Origin: Natrinema pellirubrum DSM 15624
GTDB lineage: Archaea > Halobacteriota > Halobacteria > Halobacteriales > Natrialbaceae
NCBI RefSeq assembly: GCF_000230735.2
Contig: NC_019962.1
Location: forward strand, 3,658,001-3,722,000
DNA: 64,000 bases
Direction: 5' to 3'
A model generated the notes under the pieces. It was not told where the DNA came from, did no database searches, and saw nothing but the letters and a program-made list of their open reading frames with translations. A program made the translations under genes and the position numbers. Shown here one piece after another: positions 36,154 to 41,677 of this stretch (position 1 is the stretch's first letter; each line of letters begins with the position of its first letter).

Positions 36154-38432
<2,279 letters not shown>

Positions 38433-38484
38433 CGAGCGATTCTTCGAACGAGGCGCTTTTGCGGCTCCCGTCGAATACTCGGGT

Positions 38485-39498
38485 ATGGACCTCACACATC
38501 GCCCTCGGCGGCTCCGACAGGACCGGGTTCGCGGGCTCGTCAGCGAGACGAGCCTCGAGCCCTCGGACCTGATCGCCCCGGTGTTCGTCGACGCGACGAC
38601 CGACGAGCGCCGGCCGATCGAGTCGATGCCCGGCCACGAGCGGGTCCCGATCGCGGAGTCGGTCGCCCGCGTCGAGGACGTCCTCGAGACGGGCGTCGAG
38701 GCCGTCATGCTGTTCGGGATCCCGGAATCGAAAGACCCCGAGGGGACCCGCGCCTGGGCCGAGGACGGCGTCGTCCAGGAGGCGCTGCGCCGAATCACGA
38801 GCGAGACCGACGCCTACGTCATCACGGACGTCTGTCTCTGCGAGTACACCGACCACGGCCACTGCGGCCCGCTCGAGGAGGAGCTGCGAAGCGAGAGCGG
38901 CGTCGCCGCGGACGGTCCGGCCTGCGAGCCCTCGATGACCGTCGACAACGACGCGACGCTCGCGGCCCTGGAGAAGATCGCCGTCTCCCACGCCCGGGCG
39001 GGCGCGGACATGGTCGCGCCCAGCGGAATGATGGACGGAATGGTCGGGGCCATCCGGTCGGCGCTCGACCGCGAGGGGTTCGCGAACGTCCCGATCATGA
39101 GCTACGCGGCCAAATACGAGAGCGCGTTCTACGGGCCGTTCCGGGACGCCGCCGACGGCGCGCCGACCTTCGGGAACCGCCGACACTACCAGATGGATCC
39201 GGCCAACGCTCGCGAGGCCATGCGGGAAGTCCGACTGGACGCCGAGCAGGGCGCGGACGTGATGATGGTCAAGCCCGCGCTTTCCTACCTCGATATCATC
39301 AGTTCCGTCCGCCGGGAGTTCGACCACCCCGTCGCCGCCTACAACGTCTCCGGCGAGTACGCGATGCTCCACGCCGCCGCCGAGAAGGGGTGGCTCGACC
39401 TCGAGGCGGTCGCGACGGAGTCGCTGCTGTCGATCAAGCGAGCGGGCGCGGACCTGATTCTGACCTACTTCGCCGAGGACATCGCAAAGCAACTGTGA
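38485..39498 (+). CDS. hemB: delta-aminolevulinic acid dehydratase (porphobilinogen synthase)
   Basis: A 337-residue class I aldolase-type enzyme that condenses two 5-aminolevulinate molecules to porphobilinogen. Zinc-binding cysteines are in [14 protein letters not shown]. The Schiff-base lysines are in [17 protein letters not shown] and [12 protein letters not shown]. Length is typical. The start [19 protein letters not shown] matches the family. It is the first of the haem-pathway genes scattered here (hemL at 42.5 kb, hemC-cobA-hemD at 47.7-50.4 kb). A clear hairpin terminator follows its stop. Confidence 0.97.
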
Positions 39499-39501
39499 AC
39501 C

Positions 39502-39540
39502 GCCTCGGGGTCAAGCCCCGAGGCACTCGGCTTTTTTGTA
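39502..39540 (+). terminator. hemB terminator
   Basis: A perfect 9-bp stem, GCCTCGGGG-TCAAG-CCCCGAGGC (39502-39524), begins 4 bases after the hemB stop. It is followed by ACTCGGC and a T6 run (39532-39537). This is one of the clearest terminator structures in the window. Confidence 0.75.
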
Positions 39541-39950
39541 GATCGGTCGGGTTGCCGGTCGGCCCGCCCGAGTCGGCCACCGTCGAATCGACCAGGTTTG
39601 ACCACTCTGGACCGGATAGTAGACGATCGTCAATCAACGGCCCGCCGCGGAGCGAGGAGTGGCAATATCTGCCGCGCGCGAGCTGAATCGTACTGAGAGG
39701 CCCCCTTCGAGCGCCGATAACCGGTAATTCTCGCGACAGCGAGCGGATATCCGGTGCCGTCCGGGTTTACAAACAAGCAAAATATAACCGCCGCTCGAAA
39801 AGGTCGTAATTTCCAACACCCTTATACACATTAAAGCTGCTTTAGCTTTGGACGGGTGACCCTAATACACCCACAATTTTAGCCATTTGTCAACGCTAAC
39901 CCTTAAATGATGTAAGTGCAACCAACTCAAACGTGATTAAGAGGTCAAAC
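39541..39950 (+). promoter_or_regulatory. upstream region of the amt locus
   Basis: About 410 bases; its right half is AT-rich. Two TATA-like elements are CCCTTATACAC (about 39819-39829) and CCCTTAAATG (about 39900-39909). Between them are an inverted repeat, AAAGCT-GCTTT-AGCTTT (39833-39849), and GGGTG-N9-CACCC (about 39854-39872). These could be sites for a nitrogen regulator. The 39950 end carries a Shine-Dalgarno-like GAGGT before the 26-codon ORF. No gene is evident in the left half. Confidence 0.5.
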
Positions 39951-40031
39951 ATGAGCGCGATTGCACTGAAAGACGACGATCGTTTGGTCGATGAGGGGAA
40001 CGGTACGTGGAAAACCGAGGTGGACGCCTGA
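39951..40031 (+). CDS. 26-residue ORF translationally coupled to amt
   Basis: ATG at 39951 opens a short frame: [20 protein letters not shown] then KTEVDA and TGA. A Shine-Dalgarno-like GAGGT lies 6 bases upstream. Its TGA overlaps the amt ATG (TGATG), and its last codons contain GAGGTGG, which serves as the amt ribosome-binding site. The peptide is acidic with no membrane segment. It could be a functional small protein or a leader ensuring coupled translation of the transporter. Not in the usual annotation size range. Confidence 0.5.
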
Positions 40032-41677
40032 TGGAGCCGACGCTCCTGCAGAGCGAGGCCGAGGTCGAGATGTTGATCGACTCGATCAACTACATGTGGA
40101 TCCTGGTCGCCACGTTCCTGATCTTCTTCATGCACGCCGGCTTCGCCATGCTCGAGGCGGGGCAGGTGCGCTCGAAGAACGTGGCGAACCAGCTGACGAA
40201 GAACCTGCTGACCTGGAGCGTCGGCGTGACGGTGTTTTTCCTCATCGGCGTGGGTGTTGAGGGCGTCGTCGCCGGTGACGGCTTCGCGCCGGCCTTCCAA
40301 GGCGATGCCGCGGGCTGGCTAGACTGGCTGTACGGTGCGGTCTTCGCCATGACCGCGGCGACGATCGTTTCGGGTGCCGTCGCCGGTCGTGCGAAACTCC
40401 GTGCGTACGTCAGCTACACCTTCCTGCTGGCGGCGGTCATCTACCCGGTCGTCACCGGCCTCACGTGGGCCGGCGAACACCTCGCGTACGGCGACGTCCT
40501 GTTCCACGACTTCGCTGGCGGGATGATCGTCCACGGCATGGGCGGTATCGCCGGTCTCACCGCCGCGTGGGTCCTCGGTCCGCGCATGGACCGATACAAC
40601 AGTGACGGGAGCGCGAACGTCATTCCCGGGCACTCGCTGACCTTCGCCGTGCTCGGCACGCTGATCCTCGCCTTCGGCTGGTACGGCTTCAACGTCGGTA
40701 CCTCGGCGATCATCGGCGAGGGCGCGTTCCTCGGCGATCAGCTCGGTCGCGTCGCCTTGACCACGACGGCCGCGATGGCCTGCGGTGCGATGGGGGCCGG
40801 CCTCGTCGCGTGGCTCAAGACCGGCAAAGTCGATACCCTGTACGTCGCCAACGGGCTGCTGGCCGGCCTCGCCGCGATCACCGCGATCCCCGACACCACG
40901 GCGTGGTGGGGCGCGTTCGTCGTCGGCGGCCTCGCCGGCGTGCAACTGCCCCTCGTCTTCGAGTTCGTCGAGCAGTACCTGAAGATCGACGACGTCTGTG
41001 CGGTGTTCCCCGTCCACGGCTCGGCCGGGGTCCTCGGAACGCTGCTGTTCCCCTTCGTCGCCGCACCGGGCGTCGTCGATAGCATCGTGAACGCGTTCGT
41101 CGCCCAGGTCATCGGCGTCGTCGTCATCGCTGCCTGGACGATCGTCGCGACCGGCGTTATCTGGTACGCGTTCAAGGCCACCGGCCAGGCCCGCGTCTCG
41201 CCGGAACACGAACGCGACGGGCTCGACGTCTCCGAACACGGCGTCGACACCTACCCCGAGTTCGGCCAGCCCGACGTCGCCACCGACGGCGGCGACGAGA
41301 TCATCCGCGCGGACGGGGGTGAGCCGAACGACGGCGAGATCAAGATGGTCACCGCCATCGTCCGCCCCGACCGACTTGGGGCGATCAAGCAGTCGCTGGC
41401 CGAAGCCGGCGCGCCGTCGCTGACGGTCACCAACGTCTCCGGCCGCGGCTCCCAGCCCGCGAAGAAGGGCCAATGGCGCGGCGAGGAGTACACGGTCGAC
41501 CTCCACCAGAAAGTCAAGATCGAGTGCGTCGTCGCCGACATCCCCGCCGGAGAGGTCGTCGATGCCATCCGCGAGGGTGCCGAAACCGGTGAACCCGGCG
41601 ACGGCAAGATCTTCGTCATGCCCGTCGAGAGCGCGACCCAGATCCGGACCGGCAAGACCGGCCGAGACGCGGTCTGA
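40031..41677 (+). CDS. amt: ammonium transporter fused to a C-terminal PII (GlnK) domain
   Basis: A 548-residue two-domain protein. Residues ~15-405 are an Amt/Mep/Rh channel with about eleven membrane helices ([20 protein letters not shown] at the start; [17 protein letters not shown] with a pore histidine). After a cytoplasmic linker (~405-435), residues ~436-545 form a PII domain ([20 protein letters not shown] ... [20 protein letters not shown]). PII proteins plug Amt channels according to ATP/2-oxoglutarate; here the regulator is covalently attached. The T-loop reads KGQWRGEEY, with Trp482 where the modified tyrosine of bacterial GlnB lies. Translation is coupled to the small ORF upstream. 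Confidence 0.93.

Follow-up and report, generated by a model that had tools for sequence, protein, structure and literature searches.

In trp-like leader-peptide attenuators a short frame lies directly before the regulated gene, and the NrpR nitrogen regulon of methanogens is an archaeal regulon for nitrogen assimilation. For overlapping gene pairs of Haloferax volcanii and Escherichia coli, Huber et al. (2019; PMC6728339) report that 13 of the 14 tested pairs were strictly coupled, and the same source states that in haloarchaea the Shine-Dalgarno (SD) sequence is not used for de novo initiation and assists at overlapping genes. Leaderless transcripts were reported to make up 72% in H. volcanii, 118 of them with GUG, and leaderless GUG start codons created by mutation were described as weak (Babski et al., 2016; PMC4983044). 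Table 2 of that work lists small frames (15-31 codons) from a search of 5'-UTRs 150-250 nt long; its 16 cases do not include amt, glnK, or nitrite reductase, and its section on upstream open reading frames (uORFs) does not mention a stop-start overlap. The haloarchaeal nitrogen network is described as poorly understood, with no conserved master regulator of the NrpR/NrpA type (PMC6801745), and the regulator of haloarchaeal nitrogen assimilation as an open question (PMC6801745, PMC8143581). A nitrogen study in H. volcanii describes a different motif, which is AT-rich.

The locus analyzed here likewise carries a small leader frame, and it resembles the overlapping H. volcanii pairs (PMC6728339) in the TGATG or ATGA overlap, in the position of the SD inside the upstream frame and in the class of organism; whereas the partners described for those pairs are ordinary genes, the upstream partner here, a uORF that is short and probably leaderless, lacks a conserved peptide, keeps a fixed position relative to the promoter and recurs at nitrogen genes. 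Unlike trp-like attenuators, it showed no conserved codon run, peptide or consensus RNA structure. The downstream gene (40031-41677, forward strand, as are all features given below) encodes an ammonium transporter with a C-terminal P-II domain, an amt-glnK fusion that exceeded the Pfam cut-offs for both PF00909 (E 2.7e-95) and PF00543 (E 2.8e-26). The Amt-GlnK protein has one match in its own genome, and its closest named relatives are from Natrinema strains (96% identity).

The initial annotation described a 26-codon frame from the ATG at 39951 to the TGA at 40029-40031, coupled to the amt ATG at 40031-40033, and the resulting TGATG overlap (40029-40033) is genuine. Its start was placed too far downstream: the same reading frame has an earlier and more conserved GTG at 39933, 18 nt 5' of the ATG, which opens a frame of 32 codons plus TGA (39933-40031) with the reported 26-codon ORF as its in-frame tail. 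The GTG was present in 65 of 65 distinct 32-codon homologues, a set selected for GTG, and in 137 of 140 homologous regions when the start codon was masked, while an ATG equivalent to 39951 was found at codon 7 in 48 of the 65. The GAGGT at 39941-39945, proposed as the short frame's own SD, lies inside the longer frame and was not conserved: AGG occupied codon 4 in 14 of the 65 homologues, and the commonest codons 3, 4, and 5 were CAG (31), AAG (24), and ACA (35). The GAGGTGG at 40017-40023, within uORF codons 29-31 and 7 nt before the amt ATG, was correctly assigned as the amt SD. Upstream of the GTG are a TATA box (TTAAAT, 39903-39908, first T at -30) and the box TGTCAACGCTAA (39888-39899, -45 to -34). 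A scan of the window (the whole 64-kb stretch of DNA, both strands) for TATA followed after 30/31 nt by ATG or GTG, 8-45 codons and a stop codon placed where a frame of at least 150 codons begins matched the amt site only, in agreement with the earlier view that the arrangement is unlikely to be due to chance.

Conservation was investigated in 161 regions upstream of amt, consisting of the window, 80 from named genomes other than H. volcanii and Haloferax mediterranei, and 80 from genomes of the family, four of these last being amt paralogues of 55-58% identity. A GTG with a 20-45-codon frame ending near amt and preceded by a TATA-like hexamer was observed in 148 of the 161 regions, and in none of the four paralogues examined. 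Of these 148 regions, which had been selected for a TATA-like hexamer within a 13-nt window (21-33 nt), 111 have the first T of the hexamer 30 nt before the GTG and 33 have it 31 nt before. For a further comparison the paralogues were dropped and the remaining 157 regions were anchored by means of a profile that spans -42 to +57 and in which the start-codon columns were masked; 142 scored at least 15, of which 140 were distinct (50 clusters at 70% identity), and 15 low-scoring regions were left out. The anchor codon was GTG in 137 of the 140 regions, GTA in two, each with a following in-frame ATG, and GGA in one. The frame remained open to the amt start (-12 to +8) in all 140 regions, compared to 28.7 expected from base shuffling of each frame, although the profile had been trained on regions chosen for carrying the ORF and this comparison is thus not fully independent. 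Early stops were found in 139 of 140 regions in frame 1 and in 109 of 140 in frame 2, the reading frame of amt itself. The frame is therefore conserved across haloarchaeal amt genes. An exact stop-start overlap was present in 127 of the 140 regions, as TGATG in 55 and ATGA in 72, and the distance from GTG to amt, which ranged from 65 to 140 nt, was 2 mod 3 in 138; in the two exceptions (L053 and L054) the frame does not overlap amt and is separated from it by 3 nt. The amt SD was GAGGT in 84 regions, GGGGT in 22, GGAGG in 14, weaker in 11, and missing in nine.

A few loci deviate from this pattern. In five amt regions (L057, L085, L273, L274, and L276) the GTG at +1 is lost and a later ATG keeps the frame to the overlap, and in L271 the frame ends 22 nt before amt. 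At L401 (genome G246) the conserved promoter GTG shares the reading frame of amt and there is no separate uORF, which would make the leader frame an N-terminal extension of the transporter. One amt paralogue (L186, G071:C1:103815-105197) has an internal TGA and is possibly a decayed amt copy. A looser test, which accepted any ATG or GTG frame of at least eight codons ending near the start, detected a frame in 149 of 157 amt regions, 57 of 58 nirA regions, one of 10 nirA paralogues, and two of four amt paralogues; since shuffling gave it a chance rate of 0.26-0.48, it was not used as main evidence.

The promoter and the first 57 nucleotides of the transcribed region, as predicted from the TATA box, align almost without gaps among 86 amt regions, and three motifs stand out: a box CAACGCTAA just 5' of TATA, the GTG itself as GTGATT, and GAC-NNN-CGT at +43 to +51, which is GACGATCGT in the window (39975-39983). 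In the last, conservation is at the nucleotide level and independent of the codons. Outside Natrialbaceae the box is less pronounced; across amt its shared part is TnAAC...T.A, and the first TG is not conserved. Within the window, box plus TATA had no other match at up to two mismatches (0.01 expected), while a class-wide pattern search also matched many unrelated repeats. Further upstream, between 39820 and 39868, a conserved block comprises CCTTATACA (-113), a dyad TAAAGC-T-GCTTTA (39832-39844), and CCTAATAC (39861-39868, -72). Of the 140 amt regions, 125 have a CCTTATA-like motif (-113 to -111); among the 96 from Natrialbaceae, 72 have CCTAWTAY at -72/-71, compared to none of the 44 others at that place; the dyad, even in a relaxed form (TAAA, 4-6 nt, TTTA), occurred in just 17 of 140. 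The block 65-113 nt 5' of the GTG keeps a fixed distance, with CCTTATACA at -113, CCTATTAC at -72 in Natrialbaceae, and CCTTATAT in the TATA region, giving three CCTWATA-like motifs spaced about 40 bp apart, and nirA has a counterpart of CCTTATACA, CCTAATACA, at about the same place. This block may represent regulator sites or a second promoter.

A model of the module built from sequence only matched 318 of 391 haloarchaeal genomes and 72 of 86 genera at E<=0.01; these E-values are rough, the training sequences match by construction, and not every match was inspected. Some family genomes with amt gave no profile match (G006 and G029), and in all 20 inspected genomes, which were picked mostly for extra matches, the best match was upstream of amt. 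In the window's own genome the sole other strong site precedes a gene of the nitrite/sulphite-reductase family (PF01077 and PF03460; best NCBIfam match ferredoxin-nitrite reductase, below the cut-off), here called nirA. Its leader contains a frame of 27 codons whose start lies 30 nt downstream of TATA and whose end falls within the first nirA codons. In the family genomes the nirA uORF was present in 48 of 58 orthologues (at least 72% identity) and in none of 10 paralogues (54-57%). A tighter rule retained 45 of the 58, with GTG as start in 38 and ATG in seven, an exchange that is expected of a start codon. Of the ten orthologues that failed the first rule, four (L345, L346, L347, and L356) carry GTA at +1 and, two codons later, an in-frame stop, and in these a frame reaching the overlap starts from an ATG at +13. 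In L305, read by eye, an in-frame ATG comes after an early stop, and L332 has an ATG frame that begins 30 nt downstream of a TATA-like site and closes shortly before a GTG start. No such frame was found in L351, another of the ten, or in L280, the nirA of G246. Leaders of amt (13) and nirA (35) could be aligned without gaps over 102 positions, and they share, at equal distances, TnAACGnTnA 5' of TATA, the TATA box, AAC before the start and CGAWCGT at about +45 to +51; nirA leaders have TGTAAACGATTA at the distance of TGTCAACGCTAA in amt, and CGATCGT in the place of GAC-NNN-CGT. These boxes stand at fixed positions before both genes, the profile matches most searched haloarchaeal genomes, and the boxes could be used directly as bait or in reporters.

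Taken together, these results suggest that the uORF probably serves as a leaderless ribosome loader for amt, acting by termination-reinitiation within a position-locked nitrogen promoter. From the TATA-GTG spacing of 30/31 nt the transcript is expected to begin at or beside the GTG at 39933. A TATA-like sequence was found 20-33 nt 5' of the GTG in 135 of the 140 regions and at that distance from the amt start in none, and amt itself is therefore not arranged for a leaderless transcript. Ribosomes would initiate on the 5'-terminal GTG, read 32 codons of nearly indifferent sequence, terminate at the TGA (40029-40031), and start again at the amt ATG that overlaps it, with the aid of GAGGTGG; the stop overlaps the start or lies within a few nucleotides of it in all 140 regions, as termination-reinitiation would require. 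The codon-7 ATG at 39951 may be used instead of or besides the GTG, given the weakness of leaderless GUG starts made by mutation (PMC4983044). The reason for a leader may be that the control region of the nitrogen genes extends past the start of transcription, to the motif at +43 to +51, in which case the gene could not itself be leaderless and its mRNA would carry a leader; and with a leader present and the SD not used for de novo initiation, a leaderless uORF would be needed to bring ribosomes. In organisms that start leaderless and ignore the SD de novo, a gene with a leader would thus need a loader, and the locus offers a clean case of a uORF that appears to be selected for its frame and stop and not for its peptide.

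The initial annotation had further suggested that the peptide could regulate the transporter or its translation. Action of a small peptide on Amt/GlnK finds a parallel in Methanosarcina mazei, where the 61-aa sP36 is reported to bind AmtB1 and GlnK1 (PMC10714827). The codon-position test on 65 distinct 32-codon frames did not find purifying selection on the uORF amino acids: substitutions at codon positions 1, 2, and 3 numbered 714, 859, and 675 (127 close pairs, not independent of each other), and codons with a single change were synonymous in 209 cases and non-synonymous in 831 (neutral expectation 26.6% synonymous; ratio 1.44). GC3 was 0.58 in the uORF (110 distinct frames) compared to 0.91 in amt, the frames ranged from about 20 to 47 codons, and the peptide had no Pfam match. 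Relatives of the peptide at E<0.05 were confined to its own genus (nine of 125 family genomes, including its own), and the nirA uORF peptides showed no codon-position bias either (406/440/359, 378/326/365, and 51/49/31 in three length groups). Frame and position are therefore kept upstream of other haloarchaeal amt genes while the peptide is not; what stands of the earlier reading is a small frame, conserved and tied by its position to amt, with a possible effect on the translation of that gene. A regulatory peptide, the leading idea until the amt and nirA uORFs were tested in this way, appears unlikely, and an action of the peptide itself on Amt/GlnK or on translation is very improbable.

Another reading is that selection acts on a DNA or RNA element only and that the open frame is incidental. 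Codon 3 (NNG, 95%), codon 15 (NNC, 98%), and codon 17 (NNT, 94%) retain their third base despite changes of amino acid, which places the constraint on nucleotides, and the boxes are common to nirA at a fixed distance; this reading nevertheless leaves unexplained that all frames are open, that their lengths change in steps of three, and that they stop on the start codon, and we give it little credence. The uORF could instead be a regulatory gate, at which nitrogen status alters initiation, elongation or reinitiation and so switches amt, nirA, and others at the level of translation. Its retention at several nitrogen-assimilation genes would fit such a role, as would the persistence of GTG, a weak leaderless start, in nearly all amt leaders though nirA shows that ATG is possible. 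On the other hand, no conserved codon or peptide able to sense an amino acid was found; RNAalifold predicted no consensus pairs in the leader, and Rfam had no match in 39500-40400. A hairpin at +41 to +54 (TGGAC-NNNN-GTCCA), plausible by eye, was rejected: it had no covariation and no RNAalifold pairs, and its pairing equaled the independent-column expectation for five of six pairs (57 compared to 45.9 for the sixth). The motif at +43 keeps a fixed distance from TATA and a variable one from amt, which points to control on DNA rather than RNA. A gate is thus unlikely, though less so than the peptide or the incidental frame, and the ribosome loader remains the reading that we prefer.

Further members of the module were sought with a joint amt/nirA model in 20 genomes and among the matches of the amt module model. 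These leads, from few genomes, include second amt copies, NarK-type transporters (L297, L400, and L402), NAD synthase (L397, L398, L399, and L403), and glnK (L293 and L294); as to family assignment, the NarK-type matches were below the NCBIfam cut-off, and L293, L402, L398, L399, and L403 were left out of the scan. The NarK-type uORFs have 26-42 codons with TATA at 29-31 nt and overlap the gene start. At the NAD synthase genes a GTG frame of 8-12 codons lies over the gene start, with a TATA-like site 30-31 nt before it and a similar upstream box; one of them is in the window's own genome (L397, G000:C1:329900-329994, E 0.165), and nadE may belong to the same regulon. The separate glnK genes have an overlapping frame of 30-32 codons and no standard TATA. 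L277/L405, NAD synthase by family and lacking such a frame, were rejected, and neither L280 nor L296 was counted. The predicted cis-element is thus common to several nitrogen-assimilation genes, as is expected of a nitrogen regulon element. It is a bolder and rather doubtful proposal that a nitrogen regulon, defined by the position-locked promoter module and its near-obligatory leaderless uORF, extends across the haloarchaea as a class, and that in it ribosome passage would be the regulated step that jointly sets the output of ammonium transporter, nitrite reductase and nitrate transporter.

Control of the module by NrpR was considered and rejected, as the NrpR family (PF01995) had no match in this genome, compared to two of 14 control genomes with a match; the amt and nirA boxes also presumably differ from the NrpR operator. 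No earlier description of the uORF or the boxes was found in the portions consulted of PMC4983044, PMC6728339, PMC6801745, PMC8143581, PMC3831643, PMC8229911, and PMC10714827, nor by the literature search, whose scope did not extend to the ribosome-profiling and small-proteome work on H. volcanii, so that a prior description is possible.

Two observations concern neighboring genes. In genome G180, a sequence like the module from +1 to +60 precedes an Lrp/AsnC regulator gene (L283/L404); it was not counted as a member, and this gene is a possible candidate for the regulator. Lrp/AsnC, reported to have been found with the nasABC promoter of Hfx. mediterranei (PMC8143581), would be the first candidate to consider. 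Just 5' of amt in the window is a frame at 38122-39498 that by its sequence resembles hemB (porphobilinogen synthase), and a hemB-like frame also adjoins amt at L198, in a genome from a different family; the pairing of the two genes may be old.
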